DNA of 26,397 bases from a virus, in the IMG/VR virus record IMGVR_UViG_3300025736_000167, positions 1-26,397 of that record; one strand, 5' to 3'. Under the pieces are notes generated by a model, which made no database searches, was not told the DNA's origin, and saw nothing but the letters and a program-made list of their open reading frames with translations. Shown here piece by piece: positions 3,017-22,746 of the stretch. The position numbers and the translations under genes were made by a program. The first letter of the stretch is position 1; each line of letters starts with the position of its first letter.

Positions 3017-5125
3017 GTGATATTTCAAGAGCTTGATACTAAATATGTAGATTCAGGTGATCGCAATATACTTGAGTATATGAATCATTTGTACATGCAA
3101 TCAATTACGATAAATCTAACCTATGCCTCTGAGGCTGATTTAGATCATAAATTTTACAGTGGCGACCAATCAGCCTTTAATTCATATTGGGCTGGTGTTC
3201 CAGGTCCTATGCGCAAAACCTTTATATTTAACAAGATACGTAAACAAATCGATCTTGTTTCAGGTAATCAGCGAAAAAACCGCAAACAAACTGTATGTGT
3301 TCCTGTAGAGAATGCGGACCAGAAGACAGCAGATCAGTTTTCAAAGATTTTTGACTATGTACATAATAGAGAATATGTCCTCGAAACCATATCAGATACC
3401 TTTAAGGAGGCTCTCATTTCTGGCATGTCTCTTTTGCAGCTCTGGTTAGATTTTAGAAATGATCCTATATCAGGTGATATTAAAGTAGCTAAAACTGATT
3501 ACAATTCATTTATAATCGACCCATTCTTTCGAAACGCTGATCTTTCTGACTGCCATTTTATATGGAAACGTTCTTATCTAACCAAGAGAGATATATTAAG
3601 TCTCATGCCTACAGCATCAGATATTATTAAAAACCTCCAAAATGACACCATGCGCGACGGAAAGTTTCAGTACCAACCAGAATCCCTCGGTTATAACATG
3701 AGCAACCTGATTGCGTATGATGAGTTCTACTATAGAGATTATAGAGAGCAACTTATTCTTGTAGATAGACAAACTGGTGAAGTACAAGAGTGGCGTGGCC
3801 AAGATGATGATCGCCTAAATCTATTTTTACAGACTTACCCTCAAATCACTATGAAGAAAACAGAGGTTCCTACGGTTAAGCTAGCTATAGTTGCTGGAGG
3901 ACAAGTTCTATTTAATTCCTACAATCCAATGGGTATAGATAATTACCCTTTTATACCTGTAACTGCCTATTATAATCCACAAATTCCCTATTATAATTAT
4001 CGCGTACAAGGAATGGTCAGAGGCCTCAGGGATGCACAATTCTTATACAATCGCCGTAAGGCAATAGAATTGGATATTTTAGAGAGTCAGGTAAACTCTG
4101 GTTGGAAGTATAAAGAGGACTGCTTAGTCAATCCTTCAGATATATTTATGGCTGGACAGGGTAAGGGAATCGCTCTTAAGACTGAAGCACAAATGACCGA
4201 TGCGGAGCAAATACAGTCTCCAATAGTACCACCAACAACTATTCAGTTATCTGAGATGTTGGGTAAAGAAATGAATGATATATCCGGTATTAGTGAGGAA
4301 TTACTCGGTACTCCTACTAATGATGTTGCTGGTTTATTGTCCATGATTAGACAAAATGCTTCTCTTGTTACCTTACAGCCTTTATTTGATCAACTTGATA
4401 GGTCACAAAGACAACTTGGCAAACTTATGATAGACGTGATTCAAGCTAACTATACTCCTGGTAAAATAAAGAAAATACTCGGCGGTGACGAGCCTAGTCA
4501 ACAGTTCTACAATAAGTCATTCGGTGTATATAACGCACACGTTGAAGAGGCTGTACTTACTCAAACTCAAAAACAGTTACAATTTGCACAGTTGATCCAG
4601 TTAAGAGAGATGGGTGTTGCTGTACCAGATAACGTCCTATTAGACTCATGTCTATTGCAGAACAAAGAAGAACTTATAAAATCTATCCAACAGTCGCAAC
4701 AACAAAAACAAGAAATGGAACAAAGACAAGCAGAGTTGCAGATGATGCAATTACAATCTCAGATCAAACTTAATGAATCTCAGGCTACAGCGAACGAAGG
4801 TCTTGGTATCGAACGCCTATCTAGAGTACAAGAAAATGAAGCACTTGCTCAAGAACGTCGCGCTCAGGCAGTTAAAGATGAAGATTCTGCTCTTTTAGAT
4901 CTCGTTAAAGCAATGAAAGAGATTGATGGAATAGATTTAAGCCATATGAAACAACTTTTAGAGATGCATAACCTCGTTAAAGCGCAAGAACAGGATAATG
5001 CTAACGGTGATTCTGATGTTACAGTTAAACCAGGAAGGGCTGTGAATGATCGAAAAACTGCAGAAGTTAATAGTAATAATAGAGATAATCAAGAAGCTGC
5101 CGGAGGAGGAAATAATCTTACTTAA
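3017..5125 (+). CDS. Portal protein, P22 type
   Basis: Forms the dodecameric ring at one capsid vertex through which DNA enters and leaves. The 702 residues are close to the P22 portal in length. The N-terminal region is typical of that family: DRNILEY, then an aromatic stretch with FNSYWAGVPGPMRK, then IRKQIDLVSGNQRKNRKQ. The central part contains DISGISEELLGTPTNDVAG, a clip/stem-like region. From about residue 554 to 650 the chain is Gln/Glu-rich helix and coiled coil (QQSQQQKQEMEQRQAEL), matching the C-terminal barrel of P22-type portals. The start is GTG with GGGG five bases upstream; no better in-frame start was seen. Directly follows the terminase block. Confidence 0.92.
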   Translation: MIFQELDTKYVDSGDRNILEYMNHLYMQSITINLTYASEADLDHKFYSGDQSAFNSYWAGVPGPMRKTFIFNKIRKQIDLVSGNQRKNRKQTVCVPVENADQKTADQFSKIFDYVHNREYVLETISDTFKEALISGMSLLQLWLDFRNDPISGDIKVAKTDYNSFIIDPFFRNADLSDCHFIWKRSYLTKRDILSLMPTASDIIKNLQNDTMRDGKFQYQPESLGYNMSNLIAYDEFYYRDYREQLILVDRQTGEVQEWRGQDDDRLNLFLQTYPQITMKKTEVPTVKLAIVAGGQVLFNSYNPMGIDNYPFIPVTAYYNPQIPYYNYRVQGMVRGLRDAQFLYNRRKAIELDILESQVNSGWKYKEDCLVNPSDIFMAGQGKGIALKTEAQMTDAEQIQSPIVPPTTIQLSEMLGKEMNDISGISEELLGTPTNDVAGLLSMIRQNASLVTLQPLFDQLDRSQRQLGKLMIDVIQANYTPGKIKKILGGDEPSQQFYNKSFGVYNAHVEEAVLTQTQKQLQFAQLIQLREMGVAVPDNVLLDSCLLQNKEELIKSIQQSQQQKQEMEQRQAELQMMQLQSQIKLNESQATANEGLGIERLSRVQENEALAQERRAQAVKDEDSALLDLVKAMKEIDGIDLSHMKQLLEMHNLVKAQEQDNANGDSDVTVKPGRAVNDRKTAEVNSNNRDNQEAAGGGNNLT

Positions 5126-6527: not shown

Positions 6528-7238
6528 ATGGAAACAGAAAAAGTATTAGAAACTCAGGTAGAAACTGAAGTTAAACAAGATACTGTTTTGGAACAGCCTG
6601 CAGAAGCGGTTGCAGCACCAGTAGAAACAGCAGCGCAGTTGTCATTTAAACAGTTACGCGAGAAGGCTGAACGTCTAGAACGTGAACGCGATGAGTATTA
6701 TAGAAAAAACCAGCAATATGAGAATAGACAACCCGTAGAGAGAGGCGATGAAGAAGAAAATTATCCGATTAATAATGATGATCTGGTCGAAGGTAAACAT
6801 CTTAAAGCATATGAGAAAAAACTCAAAAAATTAGAAGATTCCTTTACAAAAAGCCAAAAGAAGGCAGAAGAAGCATTCTCAGAGAGTAGAATCCGCTCAG
6901 AGTTTCCAGACTTCGATAAAGTAGTCTCTCAAGATGCATTATATATACTACAGTCACAATTCCCAGAACTCGCAGCCTCTATTAACGCTAACCCTGATCT
7001 GTACAGCAAAGCCAAGGCAGCGCACCAAGCAATAACAAAACTTAATATCAATCCAAATGATTTTAGCTCACAAGATAAGGCAATTAACAAAAATCTCAGT
7101 AAACCACAGAACGTTAATGCAGTATCACCACAACAGGGTGAATCCGCATTAAACAAAGCTAATGCATTTGCTAACGGATTAACTGAAGATGATAAAAAGA
7201 GATTGTACGCAGAGATGTGTCGTTACGCGGACATGTAA
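6528..7238 (+). CDS. Capsid assembly scaffolding protein
   Basis: A 236-residue, very charged protein with no Cys and little hydrophobic core. The first ~35 residues are Glu/Val/Ala-rich. Helical, coiled-coil-like stretches follow at ~38-65 (FKQLREKAERLERERDEYYRK) and ~92-125 (KHLKAYEKKLKKLEDSF). A conserved-looking FPDFDKVVSQD then FPELAASINANPD segment precedes an Asn/Gln-rich part and a short helical C-terminus with a basic patch (EDDKKRLYAEMCR). This layout and the place after portal and upstream of the major capsid gene fit phage scaffolds, which co-assemble with capsid protein through their C-terminus and then leave. The ATG can lie in a stem (CATTG 6513-6517 with CAATG 6526-6530) whose loop carries GAG. 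A strong terminator follows. Confidence 0.85.
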   Translation: METEKVLETQVETEVKQDTVLEQPAEAVAAPVETAAQLSFKQLREKAERLERERDEYYRKNQQYENRQPVERGDEEENYPINNDDLVEGKHLKAYEKKLKKLEDSFTKSQKKAEEAFSESRIRSEFPDFDKVVSQDALYILQSQFPELAASINANPDLYSKAKAAHQAITKLNINPNDFSSQDKAINKNLSKPQNVNAVSPQQGESALNKANAFANGLTEDDKKRLYAEMCRYADM

Positions 7239-7299
7239 ATTCATCACGGAGTACTGTAAAAACCACTTAAGTTTGTATAGTAAACGAAAGTCGTGATGG

Positions 7300-7336
7300 T
7301 TGCCCCAAGGTTTTGTCTACTTCTTCCTTGGGGCAA
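7300..7336. terminator. Strong bidirectional terminator after the scaffold gene
   Basis: TTGCCCCAAGG (7300-7310) pairs perfectly with CCTTGGGGCAA (7326-7336) around a 15-base pyrimidine-rich loop. It lies between convergent genes (scaffold forward, membrane protein reverse) and could end transcription from both sides. A further inverted repeat, CATCACG (7243-7249) and CGTGATG (7292-7298), lies just before it. Confidence 0.75.
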
Positions 7337-7359
7337 ATTCATTCATGTTAAAATATCAT

Positions 7360-7719
7360 TTAATCGATATATCTAAAATTAGTTACGACAATAACCATTG
7401 AGATCATTAAAATAGAATTAATAATCAGATAATTGAGTTCAAAATGATCATTTATACTATAATTATAAAACTGTGTAAGTGCTAAAGAACATACTATCAA
7501 AGGAGTCCATATTAAAAATGGTTTTAAACTCCTGGGTTCGCCAATAATTGGGTAATATTCACGAGCAGCCCACAATATATATGAAAATAGTATAGTAGTT
7601 ATGAAAATTTTGATAAAACTCACATAACCATCGACATAAACAACTGATATTGCATTAAAGGCGGCCATTGTGAACCCATAAATAATCAATTTAATATAAT
7701 AGATTAAGTTATTATCCAT
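7360..7719 (-). CDS. Four-helix inner-membrane protein, unrecognised
   Basis: A 119-residue protein with four predicted membrane segments at about residues 7-27, 33-51, 66-84 and 95-113 and short polar links (one contains REYYPIIGEPRSLK). A GGGG lies four bases upstream of ATG. It is the last gene of the reverse-strand island, starting 28 bases after the stop of the secreted Gly/Ala-rich protein. The two could act together, for example as a toxin or exclusion factor with a membrane partner, but this is inference. No family recognised. Topology also fits small EamA/DMT-like or holin-like proteins. Confidence 0.65.
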   Translation of the reverse strand: MDNNLIYYIKLIIYGFTMAAFNAISVVYVDGYVSFIKIFITTILFSYILWAAREYYPIIGEPRSLKPFLIWTPLIVCSLALTQFYNYSINDHFELNYLIINSILMISMVIVVTNFRYID

Positions 7720-7747
7720 GATACCCCAGTTCTAATTTGTGTTACCT

Positions 7748-8239
7748 TTATGGGAGCGGTAAAGCACCACCTACAATAGTTGCTGCAATTGTTGCCTTAG
7801 TTGTAGCCGCTGCACCAGCTGCGAGAACAAAAATACAGCCTGGGCCTGTTGAAGGTATAGATACGATTGTAGCCGCAAGTGTCCCAGCGCATCCACCAAC
7901 AGCTGTAACAAGACCGAAAACCATGCCTGTAAAAGGTCCTGCCCCTAATCCTCGTTGATGTCCTTCAATTTTGTAACTCGCATCAGACATTCTTTTAAGC
8001 TCTAGACAACCAGTCTTCAGATATGATCGCAATTCCTCTTTACTACGGTGCCTTAGCTCTTTTGATACATTGTATGAAGGGATTTTGTAGCTGCTGTTAT
8101 CTTTTTGTACACAAAAACCATCCTTATGATAAGACAGTTCGATACCATCAACTTTACTTGATTGTATAAAATTCTTCTCTTTAATAGCCATACCGTTAAC
8201 TATGCATGGAAAAAGAAATAAAATAAATAATTTATTCAT
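7748..8239 (-). CDS. Secreted protein with a Gly/Ala-rich hydrophobic C-terminus
   Basis: 163 residues. Residues 1-16 form a signal peptide (MNKLFILFLFPCIVNG, predicted cut before MAIKEK). Residues ~17-95 are polar, with KELRHRSKEELRSYLKTGCLEL. Residues ~102-128 and ~132-160 are Gly/Ala-rich hydrophobic segments (PFTGMVFGLVTAVGG; FVLAAGAAATTKATIAA) with GxxxG-like spacing, ending in ALPLP. The pattern of a secreted precursor with two membrane-inserting glycine-zipper helices recalls bacteriocin-like or pore-forming proteins and some secreted proteins of amoeba-associated bacteria. I cannot name a family. AGAGGA lies upstream of ATG. A terminator separates it from the thymidine kinase gene, so it may have its own promoter near 8250-8290. 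Confidence 0.7.
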   Translation of the reverse strand: MNKLFILFLFPCIVNGMAIKEKNFIQSSKVDGIELSYHKDGFCVQKDNSSYKIPSYNVSKELRHRSKEELRSYLKTGCLELKRMSDASYKIEGHQRGLGAGPFTGMVFGLVTAVGGCAGTLAATIVSIPSTGPGCIFVLAAGAAATTKATIAATIVGGALPLP

Positions 8240-8289
8240 AAAATAATCCTCTTAAGAGAATGATATCTCTTTTAAAAAATGTATGAAAA

Positions 8290-8348
8290 ATAAGCCATGT
8301 AAGTAACATATATTAATCAAAATATATTACAATAATTACATGGCTTAT
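8290..8348 (-). terminator. Long terminator hairpin after the thymidine kinase gene
   Basis: ATAAGCCATGTAA (8290-8302) pairs perfectly with TTACATGGCTTAT (8336-8348). The interior extends the stem with GTA/TAC and with ATATATT (8308-8314)/AATATAT (8321-8327), giving about 23 pairs with two bulges and a six-base loop. Read on the reverse strand the stem is followed by TTTTTC, as expected of an intrinsic terminator. Confidence 0.75.
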
Positions 8349-8373
8349 CGATATAATGAATAAATCGAATGTT

Positions 8374-9051
8374 TTAAAGCAAAATATGACAATTTTTACA
8401 TCGTGGCTCATAGGTAACTAGACTTTTATCATCATCGATAATAATATCTGGGTCGCTAGATAGGGCCGGCATGCCATTAACAAGACGTTGTGTATATTCT
8501 GCATTATGGCAATTACAAAGGTTGCATCGTGATTGAAGTTTAATTTTGTTCTTAGATCTCTGTACCAATTGAGTAATTGTAGTCCCAAATGATTCACGTC
8601 TAAAATTAGTATCAAGACCTGATACAACAACATTTATTTTTGCTTTGATCATTGTATCGATAACATTAATAAGTTTATTAGAATAAAACTGTACCTCGTC
8701 AATAAATACGACCTCAGGTTCCTCCTGTAGAACTTTAAGTAAAATATACTCAGCTGATGATGTAGAAATACAGGGAATCTCCTCAGCATAAGCACGAGAC
8801 TTGAGCGTATTCTCTGTTCTTGTATCAAAGGTATGTTTGAACGCCAAGTACTTTATCCGTTGTTCACGGGCAAATTTGACATACAATATAAGGTTGGCTG
8901 TTTTTCCAGCATACATTGGTCCTGTTATGGTAGTTAATTCACCATCATTAGAAAAGAGAGAGTATTTATTTAAATTGTACATTCCAGGAGATTTTTGTAC
9001 CATCGCCTGAGAGTTGCAGAATATTAACAAAAGAAATAATAGTTTCTTCAC
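8374..9051 (-). CDS. tdk: Thymidine kinase (type II) with an N-terminal signal peptide
   Basis: Phosphorylates thymidine to dTMP in nucleotide salvage. Of 225 residues, 44-51 are the P-loop GPMYAGKT, 118-122 the Walker B DEVQF, and 145-156 the family motif GLDTNFRRESFG. Cys176, Cys179, Cys218 and Cys221 form the zinc-binding pair of CxxC motifs, and 183-189 (NAEYTQR) matches the lasso region. The oddity is residues 1-16, MKKLLFLLLIFCNSQA, a textbook signal peptide (two Lys, hydrophobic core, cut site before Met17). The start is GTG, with GGGAG at good spacing, in a 4-base GTGA overlap with the upstream gene. An internal ATG at codon 17 would give a normal cytosolic enzyme but has only a weak AGG upstream. 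Kinase identity is firm; export is a prediction. Confidence 0.93.
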   Translation of the reverse strand: MKKLLFLLLIFCNSQAMVQKSPGMYNLNKYSLFSNDGELTTITGPMYAGKTANLILYVKFAREQRIKYLAFKHTFDTRTENTLKSRAYAEEIPCISTSSAEYILLKVLQEEPEVVFIDEVQFYSNKLINVIDTMIKAKINVVVSGLDTNFRRESFGTTITQLVQRSKNKIKLQSRCNLCNCHNAEYTQRLVNGMPALSSDPDIIIDDDKSLVTYEPRCKNCHILL

Positions 9052-9263
9052 AATTCTCCCTCAATTTCACAAAATTCAATAACAGGAAACTTTGTAATAT
9101 CAACAATAGCACCATTACACTCAATGAATTTCTGGGGAAGATCGGTATTCATAATATCAACTGCTTTTTTAAGCATGATTTCCTCTATTTCACACTCATA
9201 GCTACAATTAAGATCACCAATTTGGTCTAACGAGTAGAACATGATACTAAATATCTTCATCAT
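9048..9263 (-). CDS. Small acidic protein of unknown function
   Basis: 71 residues, acidic, with several Cys and Ile-rich stretches (YSLDQIGDLNCSYECEIEEI; AVDIMNTDLPQKFIECNGAI; VIEFCEIEGEL). Two Met codons begin the frame; AAGGAAGG upstream fits either, and the second is better spaced. The stop overlaps the kinase GTG, so it is coupled to it. A perfect TATAAT on the reverse strand at 9297-9292 might be the -10 of an internal promoter, but I see no matching -35. I recognise no family. Confidence 0.55.
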   Translation of the reverse strand: MMKIFSIMFYSLDQIGDLNCSYECEIEEIMLKKAVDIMNTDLPQKFIECNGAIVDITKFPVIEFCEIEGEL

Positions 9264-9308
9264 TTTCCTTCCTTGTATGTATATAAGTCTAATTATATGG
9301 CTTCTTCC

Positions 9309-9641
9309 TCATCTATTTTCATTAATGATCGATTCCTGCTTAAATAATCTATCATCCGAATGGGCTACAATACTATTATTTTCTTTAAATTCTACAGTTA
9401 CTTTACCAAAATATTTCTGAATAAATCCTACAAGTTCTTGGTTGCAACTAAACAACCGAATGGTTGCAGCATGTTTAGGATTATATACAATGAGAAGATG
9501 TTTTTTAACCCTATCAAACGTTTTTATGCTAACAAGTGAAAGCATACGTTCAAATGGTTGTACCCCTTGTTGGGCATCCTCTAATACATGACTCCATTGC
9601 TCGCAACAATATTTAAATTCAACCCAGAGATCAATCTCCAT
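9309..9641 (-). CDS. Small protein resembling the C-terminal domain of clamp-loader tau/gamma
   Basis: 110 residues, cytosolic. The order of elements resembles the last domain of DnaX (tau) from many bacteria: an early Trp helix (EFKYCCEQWSHVLEDAQQG), a helix (FERMLSLVSI), a strand (HLLIVYN), a helix (NQELVGFIQKYFG), then an edge strand (FGKVTVEFKE). In DnaX this region contacts the polymerase. If correct this is a free-standing copy that could modify or block the host replisome. Only the pattern supports it, not a unique motif. It starts four bases after the upstream stop and has no clear RBS, which suggests translational coupling. The short C-terminal tail after VEFKEN is polar. Confidence 0.6.
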   Translation of the reverse strand: MEIDLWVEFKYCCEQWSHVLEDAQQGVQPFERMLSLVSIKTFDRVKKHLLIVYNPKHAATIRLFSCNQELVGFIQKYFGKVTVEFKENNSIVAHSDDRLFKQESIINENR

Positions 9642-9645
9642 AAAC

Positions 9646-10404
9646 TTATAATAATTTTACAATCAATTTAGAGTCATCAAACAATTCACATAATTTGTTG
9701 AGTACTAAATTTTTTGACAAAAGATCGACAATACCATCCCTAAAGAATATTTCTGATTGGTCAAGTTCTAGTGTTAGACAATGATTTTCAATATCGTAAT
9801 TCTTGAAAATAACCATCTGCAGCACCGATACCTTTACAGGGTCCCCTGTCGATTTATCAACAAAATCAATTAGTTTATGTAACTTGTCAATGTAAACAGC
9901 TGTTTCAATAGGGTCACTTTTGTAGTCGGCTGTTAGATCAATATTGAAATATTCAAACATCTTTAACAACAATTTATTCACGGGGTAACCACTCCTTACT
10001 GTCGCACCTTGAACAATACGCTTTAACGATCCATTTTCTTGATCTTTAGCAATCTCATAATTTAAATCTTTTAAAAAATGACTCTCCATTAAATAGAGAT
10101 GATCCATCTTTTTAAGGTTGTTAATATCATACGGCACAAAATATTTTTTAGATTTTTTCAGTATCAATAAGTTGTTAGATCGTAAAACAACTGTGCCACA
10201 ATCATCGAGCTGTAAAGATCTGAACCAATAGACACCTGTTATGATTGCTACATGAATGGCATAATGGTTACTTTTGAATCCTATATGAGTCACATATGAA
10301 AGTAATACTTTGTTTTCCCTGTGATCATATATTTCGATTCCTATAGCAGATTCTCCAGGATTAGAAGAGGCACAGCCACATGTATTTATCGTGTATAAAT
10401 GCAT
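9646..10404 (-). CDS. RNase H-like protein lacking the catalytic acids, plus C-terminal domain
   Basis: 252 residues. The first ~85 follow RNase HI order: strand, CGCASSNPG (family: DGxxxGNPG), GIEIYD, then KSNHYAI (family: TNNxAE), then a strand with LRSNNLLI (family: sDSxxvv). The three metal-binding acids align with Cys9, Ile50 and Asn77, so cleavage is unlikely and a nucleic-acid-binding role is more plausible. Residues ~95-190 are mixed helical with HLYLMESHFLKDLNYE. Residues ~190-252 (VLQMVIFKNYD; CLTLELDQSEIFF; KLCELFDD) have a helix-strand-helix-strand order like the next gene and DnaX C-termini. AGGAAGAG precedes ATG, and the next gene starts four bases after the stop. The RNase H relation is by motif pattern only. 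Confidence 0.6.
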   Translation of the reverse strand: MHLYTINTCGCASSNPGESAIGIEIYDHRENKVLLSYVTHIGFKSNHYAIHVAIITGVYWFRSLQLDDCGTVVLRSNNLLILKKSKKYFVPYDINNLKKMDHLYLMESHFLKDLNYEIAKDQENGSLKRIVQGATVRSGYPVNKLLLKMFEYFNIDLTADYKSDPIETAVYIDKLHKLIDFVDKSTGDPVKVSVLQMVIFKNYDIENHCLTLELDQSEIFFRDGIVDLLSKNLVLNKLCELFDDSKLIVKLL

Positions 10405-10411
10405 TCTCTTC

Positions 10412-10597
10412 CTATTTTTTAGATTTTGTATCTTTAATATAATCTTCTAAGAATTTGTATATAGATGGGAGTAATAAACTTGATATAGACGTATTGTTTT
10501 TTTGAGCGATTGCTCTAATTAAAAGATATTCATAGTTTTCTACTGAAACATGTAACCGTATTAAACCATTACGGGGTTTTTGCAGCTTTTTCATCAT
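10412..10597 (-). CDS. Ribbon-helix-helix (Arc/CopG-like) regulator
   Basis: A 61-residue basic protein. After KKLQKPRNG comes a beta strand (LIRLHVS), a helix (VENYEYLLIRAIAQKNN), a turn and a second helix (SISSLLLPSIYKFLEDYI), the plan of Arc/CopG/MetJ repressors, which bind DNA as dimers by the paired strand. The frame is open to 10744, but the upstream ATG has no RBS, while AGAAAGAAG lies just before the ATG pair at 10597/10594; I therefore use the short form. It is the first gene of the reverse island and faces the capsid gene, so it probably controls one or both promoters between them. Its stop is eight bases before the RNase H-like start. Confidence 0.7.
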   Translation of the reverse strand: MMKKLQKPRNGLIRLHVSVENYEYLLIRAIAQKNNTSISSLLLPSIYKFLEDYIKDTKSKK

Positions 10598-10761
10598 ACT
10601 TCTTTCTTTTTGAGACCCTTTGATATTAGACTCTCTAGTAGCGTAACAACAGATTCGCTTACTGTAAATGACGCAATTGGCCTCGTCGACCACAGGGCGC
10701 AAATTGGAGAGAATTCGCCCATCTTGCAAAATATATACATTCATAGTAATGAGGTATTACC
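10598..10761. promoter_or_regulatory. Divergent control region between the reverse island and the capsid gene
   Basis: 164 bases separate the regulator from the divergent capsid gene. They contain an imperfect hairpin (GGGCG 10695-10699 with CGCCC 10716-10720, inner AATT/AATT, GGAGAG loop). The capsid RBS sits in a 5-bp hairpin: GTAAT (10746-10750), loop GAGGT, ATTAC (10756-10760), one base before ATG. On the reverse strand TTGTTA and TAATAT are 15 bases apart, a weak promoter candidate. Late-gene and island promoters probably both lie here. Confidence 0.5.
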
Positions 10762-11709
10762 ATGGCCTACATAACCACGGATACTTTAAGTGCACCAGTA
10801 CAACAGAGTTTTGACTCTAAAATTCTCAGTACTCCTACTGCTAACCAAATTCACAATTTAGCAGCAATGCCCAAAAGAATGCCATCAAAAGGTGGCAAAA
10901 TCCTTCGCATGAGACGATATAACCAATTGCAGCCAGCTCTTGTACCATTGGGTAATAGTGGATTAACACCACCACCACAGATGGCTACAGCAGTTGATAT
11001 TGATGCTGAAATTAGTTTCTATGGAACCTATTTACAGATCAACGAGCAATGTACATTACAAGCGCAAGATAAACCGCTTAATGAACTCGCAATAAGATTG
11101 GGAGTATCGTTAAGGATTACCGAGGATTTGTTAACTCGTAATATGCTGCAAGCGACTGCCTCACAGATTAACTGTACTGGTGGCGTGAACGGTGATAATC
11201 CTACAGAATTAACGGCAAGTGATGTCGGTAATGTAGTTAAAACTTTGCTCACAAATGATGCTAAGACAATTCTCGAAAACGTCGATGCCACGGATAAATT
11301 TGGAACAGGCCCGATACGCAATTCTTTCATGGCCTTTTGCCACACTGATCTTACTGAGGATATTAACAACGTTGCTAAATTTAAACACGTTAATGAATAT
11401 CCATCGCAGCATAATATCGGCAAAGCAGAGTGGGGCAGTGTTCAGAATTTAAGATTTTGGATATCAAGCCAAGGTGCTAAGGTCACAAATTCATCATTCT
11501 TAGGTGCAACAGTTTATTCGATTTTTGTAACAGGTATGGAATCATATGCATATATTATGCAAGATGGCATGTCTGCAACATTCATCTATAGACCTGCAAT
11601 TTTTGACTCAGCTTTAGCGATGAATGCTTCAGTTGGATACAAATTTGGTGCCTGTCCAAAAATTTTGAATGACCTTTGGCTCTTCAGATTAAATACTACA
11701 TTAGCTTAA
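10762..11709 (+). CDS. Major capsid protein, N4 gp56 family
   Basis: Forms the icosahedral shell. 315 residues with an HK97-like order typical of the N4 gp56 capsid family: a short N-arm with Gln/Asn-rich residues, a basic patch (KRMPSKGGKILRMRRY), LVPLGNSGLTPPPQ, then AEISFYGTYLQINEQ, a long helix (NELAIRLGVSLRITEDLLTRNML), an insertion rich in Thr/Asn, FMAFCHTDLTEDI, and the motif EYPSQHNIGKAEWGSVQNLRFWIS near residue 210-235. Strong expression is expected; GAGG lies seven bases upstream in a hairpin loop. It is separated from its scaffold by 3.5 kb of reverse-strand cargo, although the two are normally adjacent. The next gene starts 12 bases later. Confidence 0.85.
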   Translation: MAYITTDTLSAPVQQSFDSKILSTPTANQIHNLAAMPKRMPSKGGKILRMRRYNQLQPALVPLGNSGLTPPPQMATAVDIDAEISFYGTYLQINEQCTLQAQDKPLNELAIRLGVSLRITEDLLTRNMLQATASQINCTGGVNGDNPTELTASDVGNVVKTLLTNDAKTILENVDATDKFGTGPIRNSFMAFCHTDLTEDINNVAKFKHVNEYPSQHNIGKAEWGSVQNLRFWISSQGAKVTNSSFLGATVYSIFVTGMESYAYIMQDGMSATFIYRPAIFDSALAMNASVGYKFGACPKILNDLWLFRLNTTLA

Positions 11710-22482: not shown

Positions 22483-22746
22483 ATGAAAATGTTGTTACTT
22501 TTGTCGTGTCTTTTTTGTATATATCATTCTGTTCAATCTTGTGGACTAATGGTATGGGGAAACAGTGCCTCGTCCGATCTCGTTAGTGCTAGCGCATCTT
22601 TTAGTAATAATTTTAACTACTGGCAAACGTTTCACAGTTTTAATATCAATTACAATGATCTGTTCATATTGTTGACCACGGATTGCATTTTCCACATTTT
22701 ATTCATTGGCATAATAGTTTACTTAATATATTATTCACGTTTTTAA
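22483..22746 (+). CDS. Small exported membrane protein, unrecognised
   Basis: 87 residues. A signal peptide (MKMLLLLSCLFCIYHSVQS) is followed by CGLMVWG; Cys20 comes after VQS, close to but not quite a lipobox, so a lipoprotein is possible. Residues ~27-57 are Ser/Asn/Phe-rich (SDLVSASASFSNNFNY). Residues ~59-82 form a membrane segment (FHILFIGIIVYLIYY) ending in a basic residue. TAGGAAAT precedes ATG. It would sit in the envelope facing outward. A spanin-like, exclusion or host-surface role are options, none proven. Its own divergent regulator suggests expression independent of the tail operon. Confidence 0.6.
   Translation: MKMLLLLSCLFCIYHSVQSCGLMVWGNSASSDLVSASASFSNNFNYWQTFHSFNINYNDLFILLTTDCIFHILFIGIIVYLIYYSRF

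Follow-up and report, generated by a model that had tools for sequence, protein, structure and literature searches.

The DNA analysed here, referred to as the window, is a virus record of 26,397 nucleotides (26.4 kb) that represents a tailed-phage contig with a P22-type portal. Pfam and PHROGs identify a RusA-like nuclease, a large terminase, the portal protein and the major capsid protein among its products, and the portal gene (positions 3017–5125, plus strand; PF16510, 3e-65) served as a marker for finding relatives and the host. Several other metagenomes hold contigs near-identical to the window, and, by their IMG sample numbers, these are probably Antarctic saline-lake (Ace Lake) metagenomes. 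One of these contigs, G002, is 37.9 kb long and reaches beyond the window at both ends. On the minus strand, an open reading frame (ORF) that begins with a GTG at 9051 and stops at 8374 (8374–9051; ORF list, Pfam, NCBIfam) encodes a thymidine kinase (TK) of 225 aa with a signal-peptide-like N-terminal leader. The original prediction, made from the letters of this stretch, treated it as a bacterial gene. This was mistaken: the sequence is a virus record and a tailed-phage contig, and the gene is the phage's.

A divergent type II thymidine kinase

The ORF product is a type II TK. PF00265 matches residues 38–222 at 2.6e-28 with 99.5 bits (cut-off 20.6), the NCBIfam equivalog matches at 5.4e-44 with 150.6 bits, short of its cut-off of 183, and the identity as a thymidine kinase is given by Pfam, PHROGs and PDB alike. 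The catalytic core (residues 37–225; 8377–8943, minus strand) carries the P-loop GPMYAGKT at 44–51, DEVQF at 118–122 and zinc cysteines at 176, 179, 218 and 221. Residues G44, K50, D118, E119, Q121, F122, C176, C179 and C218 align with the family, and C221 is present. An AF2 model built using 51 viral TKs lies 1.9 Å from the solved TKs 2uz3, 2ja1 and 1xx6; pLDDT is ~95 in the core, and residues 1–24 are unfolded (pLDDT <50). The protein thus shares with type II TKs (TK1-like; PF00265, phrog_592; the same three structures) the fold, the P-loop, the DExQF motif, the lasso TQRL, the four zinc cysteines and a core of ~190 residues. Unlike them, it has a 36-residue N-terminal extension with a predicted signal peptide, sits on a long branch and has lost E53, H87 and G206. 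Alignments place the start of the family at residues 30–37 and the core begins at G37, so the first 36 residues are extra. The part of this extension that adjoins the core is a linker (residues 17–36; 8944–9003, minus strand), the first portion of which is disordered.

All kinase motifs had been described as intact. For the P-loop, DEVQF and the four zinc cysteines this holds, but the protein departs from its family at eight positions that are conserved at ≥85% in the 51 viral TKs. E53N, H87A and G206D are among the changes, and E53N and G206D fall in columns that are invariant in the other viral TKs. The end branch of 3.52 is the longest in a tree of 101 TKs (median 0.5), the bootstrap of which is not fully settled. 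A chlamydial origin of the gene was also considered, and on account of the long branch the tree left it unplaced. The best identity to any relative is 34%. We conclude that the protein is a TK by descent, probably active, but unusual; given its very long branch and the conserved residues that it has lost, decay or repurposing could also be under way. The TKs of Bacillus phage G, Agrobacterium phage Atu_ph07 and Sinorhizobium phage Phosso are likewise phage-encoded, with 27–34% identity. Those phages have large genomes and leaderless TKs, whereas the phage described here is of podovirus type and ~38 kb in size.

The leader and its start codon

On the reading that we prefer, to which we assign a probability of about 0.4, the phage encodes a type II TK with a gained, translated and cleavable Sec signal peptide, and the enzyme would be released outside the bacterial cytosol. 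The established family and fold of the protein are the first support for it. The leader itself (residues 1–16, MKKLLFLLLIFCNSQA; 9004–9051, minus strand) is a predicted Sec signal peptide with cleavage after A16. It contains K2-K3, a nine-residue hydrophobic stretch and a cleavage site between S-Q-A and M17; the n-, h- and c-regions of a signal-peptidase-I substrate are present, with small residues at −3 and −1. Signal peptides were scored by a crude hand-made rule that picks up 10 of 14 E. coli proteins known to be exported and, among 54 cytosolic ones, gives one false positive at 10.8. With 13.3, the leader comes close to the top of the range of the exported E. coli proteins that the rule detects (9.3–14.4). 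It is one of 4 start codons at this level among the 735 open ones in the window, and when its own bases are shuffled, six of the 6881 open versions reach a score of 12. An export-signal-type leader had been predicted, and this crude score does place it in the range of proven E. coli signal peptides. A leader that scores in the manner of genuine signal peptides, at a level that shuffles seldom reach, argues for export.

Other types of N-terminus fit less well. Processing as a lipoprotein by signal peptidase II was rejected, since the lipobox [LVI][ASTVI][GAS]C is absent and L-I-F-C12 has Phe before Cys. The original prediction had offered membrane anchoring close to a nucleotide importer as its alternative, considered here as an uncleaved anchor with the kinase on the cytosolic side. 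Although the N-terminus is hydrophobic, as such an anchor requires, its stretch of ~9 residues is short, K2-K3 predict an N-in/C-out orientation that would leave the kinase outside, and a good signal-peptidase site follows the hydrophobic stretch. We consider an anchor very improbable.

The extension also sets this protein apart from other TKs. Scored from every in-frame start, 112 other TK genes of viral or Chlamydiota origin show no comparable N-terminus; the sole positive of the scorer among them was the P-loop itself. Viral contigs outside the same species yielded no close TK relative with the leader, and none was found in diverged relatives, all distant TKs being without the extension. 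Relatives that lack the extension had been named beforehand as a result against export; the distant TKs, at 34% identity or less, make no clean comparison for this, and the conspecific contigs that reach the site carry the leader. That the extension lies outside the TK fold and occurs in 0 of the 112 other genes is a further argument for export.

We then consider where translation begins. The GTG overlaps, in the sequence GTGA, the stop codon of an upstream ORF of 71 aa (9048–9263, minus strand; no family), an overlap of the kind that gives translational coupling, and its ribosome-binding site GAGGGAG (9056–9062, minus strand) forms a duplex of −8.5 kcal/mol at usable spacing. A coupled GTG start with a strong ribosome site was part of the original prediction, and this part is supported, indirectly, by a comparison of ribosome sites. 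A duplex of this strength at a usable distance occurs at only 54 of 8000 random positions, and among 157 internal ATG or GTG codons in frame, 3 attain −8.5. By the same duplex comparison, the in-frame ATG at codon 17 has −2.5 kcal/mol at a spacing of 1 and that at codon 24 has −2.8 kcal/mol at a spacing of 15. As a strong ribosome site accompanies the GTG and the internal ATGs have none, we take the GTG to be the main start, and the same difference favours export.

These values bear directly on the possibility that the functional product is a normal cytosolic TK begun at codon 17 or 24, with the leader an accident or a minor product. Such a protein would keep TK chemistry in the cytosol, where it belongs, and would agree with the observation that all known TKs begin just ahead of the P-loop; ATG17 leaves 20 extra residues before the core and ATG24 leaves 13. 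Neither ATG, however, has a usable ribosome site to set against that of the GTG, chance would seldom place an open, signal-peptide-like leader after so strong a coupled start, and GTG is used by the portal gene too. Translation from codon 17, which had been named beforehand as a result that would speak against export, is disfavoured by the ribosome-site comparison. We regard an internal start as unlikely, but as an alternative to be taken seriously.

Within the phage population, G001, G002 and the contigs of samples 3300005935 and 3300005917 do not differ in leader DNA, start codon or ribosome site; G003 (sample 3300025628) starts only at codon 10, and from there its leader is the same. None of the contigs has a broken TK reading frame. 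A strain variant carries V18I, Q19R and S21Y (positions 9000, 8996 and 8990), three amino-acid changes in four codons and within 11 bases; its other differences number ~5 over 9 kb. Nowhere is the TK gene more variable than at the residues that directly follow the predicted cleavage site. V18I occurs in two independent assemblies, which rules out a contig-end error for this change, and Q19R and S21Y occur in one assembly only. The contigs of samples 3300025628, 3300005935 and 3300005917, three independent assemblies, all end inside the window between 8997 and 9025, where the strain variant would be expected to create an assembly bubble. We count the unchanged start, ribosome site and leader of the conspecific contigs, together with the change-rich codons behind the cleavage site, in favour of export.

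A cargo hotspot between scaffold-like and capsid genes

The TK gene lies in a stretch (7239–10761) between a scaffold-like gene (6528–7238) and the major capsid gene (10762–11709). Relatives were recovered as 80 loci via the portal and 80 via the capsid protein. Across 108 loci, the scaffold–capsid stretch ranges from 183 to 5361 bp and is mostly 200–350 bp, and the longer ones contain cargo: GroES/GroEL, endolysin-like proteins, LAGLIDADG-like ORFs and many short signal-peptide proteins. Of the 130 cargo ORFs in the hotspot, 18 have a signal peptide; for open starts throughout the window the figure is 27 of 735. The thresholds differ slightly between the two counts, so that the enrichment is indicative. 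This enrichment also speaks for export of the TK.

Downstream of the TK gene lies a gene for an exported-type protein (7748–8239, minus strand) that begins with MNKLFILFLFPCIVNG followed by M. Members of its family occupy the hotspot of relatives that lack TK (L019, L028, L030 and L070) and consist of a signal peptide, a domain that carries the motifs DGFxVK and NGDYxI..R..GGGP, and a long, hydrophobic, Ala/Gly-rich C-terminus; the family has no Pfam or PHROG match. It is adjoined by a gene for a small membrane protein (7360–7719, minus strand), and in L019 a similarly placed one stands beside the relative of the 7748–8239 gene. TK was found in 0 of 50 records of related phages, and the portal and capsid loci of relatives contained it only in the same species. 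A search for further TK loci by way of the 7748–8239 family likewise returned only the same species. Since the related phages searched lack TK and the hotspot holds a signal-peptide family, we interpret TK as a local acquisition at a site where exported proteins accumulate.

Other features of this region were noted in passing. GroES- and GroEL-like genes occupy the scaffold–capsid gap of L048, L052, L062 and L067, and the GroEL of L052 matches phrog_5725 at 2.8e-168. The major capsid gene is split by insertions in many relatives (L038, L045, L046, L070, L074, L082, L084, L086 and L220), several of which have LAGLIDADG-like ORFs between the capsid pieces, which suggests introns or homing elements; the capsid gene of the window is uninterrupted. 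Within the window, 9646–10404 (minus strand) encodes a protein of 252 aa that matches no family; its N-terminus has an RNase H-like motif (SSNPGESAIGIEI) but lacks the acidic residues that normally go with it. A small ORF at 22483–22746 (plus strand), which adjoins the tail-side genes, has a signal-peptide-like start (MKMLLLLSCLFCIYHSVQS followed by CG).

The setting of the gene lends itself to two further explanations. Recent recombination in the hotspot may have fused a neighbour's signal peptide to the TK, giving a misdirected, non-adaptive product of a decaying gene. Signal-peptide genes are common here and one adjoins TK, the TK branch is by far the longest, conserved residues are lost and no related phage has kept the gene. 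The ORF is nevertheless open, with P-loop, DExQF and zinc cysteines retained and the frame intact in all contigs, and no DNA copy of the leader was detected elsewhere in the 38-kb relative, where matches did not exceed 13 bp and were of the chance kind. On this evidence a recent, non-adaptive fusion appears unlikely. Alternatively, the exported protein may have been repurposed and be a TK no longer, with a role in the envelope, for example in superinfection exclusion, as suspected for other hotspot cargo. Its exported neighbours and divergent core would suit this, as would the cluster of changes just past the cleavage site, a pattern expected where selection on an exposed surface keeps changing. 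The protein still has its catalytic and zinc residues, however, and the neighbours have no assigned function; we hold repurposing to be decidedly unlikely.

Predicted host and destination of the kinase

The relatives of the phage point to a host phylum. A direct search found portal relatives in 10 of 234 Chlamydiota genomes, in five of which the portal contig, at 35–41 kb, is as large as a complete phage genome. An insensitive pattern scan of 84,980 species gave a single portal match, in a Chlamydiia metagenome-assembled genome. Because portal relatives occur consistently in Chlamydiota genomes, we favour a Chlamydiota host: it is probably an intracellular chlamydia-like bacterium, an assignment that rests on metagenome bins, in which binning errors are possible. 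Chlamydiota live inside eukaryotic cells. The original prediction had envisaged a bacterium inside a eukaryotic cell; as a setting this is plausible, given the phage relatives in Chlamydiota genomes, but the gene in question is the phage's and not the bacterium's. About half of the Chlamydiota genomes (122 of 234) have a TK of their own. A 125-kb Chlamydiota contig (G211:C1, L223) carries a portal fragment and a full terminase of this phage group and is possibly a prophage remnant. A literature search for tailed phages of Chlamydiota returned nothing relevant.

If the preferred reading, a TK released outside the bacterial cytosol, is correct, translation would begin at the GTG, coupled to the upstream gene. 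The Sec machinery of the host would recognise the leader, signal peptidase I would cut after A16, and a linker of ~20 residues with the kinase core would be set free outside the bacterial cytosol. As a free periplasm has no ATP, the enzyme would have to travel past it to make metabolic sense. The inclusion or the eukaryotic cytosol would be the most sensible destination, since the host is probably intracellular and both ATP and thymidine are available there. Having crossed the outer membrane, an active kinase might raise the thymidylate pool, to the benefit of phage or bacterium. The separate steps of this scheme differ in their likelihood. Export as such is somewhat more likely than not; action in a eukaryotic compartment, argued from analogy, is well below this. 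The complete proposal, in which a nucleoside kinase of a chlamydial phage is secreted into the eukaryotic cell and alters the nucleotide metabolism of the host's host, must be called a long shot.

Two known systems provide analogies. In microsporidia, enzymes that are otherwise cytosolic, hexokinase among them, carry an attached signal peptide, and the proposed effect is a rise in host nucleotide production (PMC6460350, PMC5113988). Like these secreted hexokinases, the phage protein would be a metabolic kinase of cytosolic type that has received a signal peptide and belongs to an agent linked to life inside cells, and the analogy lends support to export (PMC6460350, PMC5113988). There, however, a eukaryotic parasite uses the ER route; here, a phage gene known from sequence would send a nucleoside kinase along the bacterial Sec route, an analogy and no homology. 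The Chlamydia proteins CPAF and cHtrA reach the host cytosol in a Sec-dependent manner, by an outer-membrane step that is still unknown (PMC3107777). They resemble the phage TK in their Sec signal peptide and in its probable chlamydial setting (PMC3107777) and, together with the phage relatives in Chlamydiota genomes, make secretion from a chlamydial host conceivable. As chlamydial proteases unrelated in sequence to the TK, they are a precedent for the route only. Two points count against a metabolic benefit: dTMP formed outside the bacterium would still need uptake, and intracellular chlamydiae retain their own ribonucleotide reductase (PMC5113988). Our literature search for exported TKs found no relevant report.

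Should export prove true, the phage would carry a metabolic enzyme whose intended place of action lies outside the infected bacterium. In a chlamydial host, a phage gene could then act in a eukaryotic cell, for which we found no described case. The locus also draws attention to the little-known tailed phages linked to Chlamydiota, and to a capsid-side hotspot that repeatedly holds exported proteins and GroEL.
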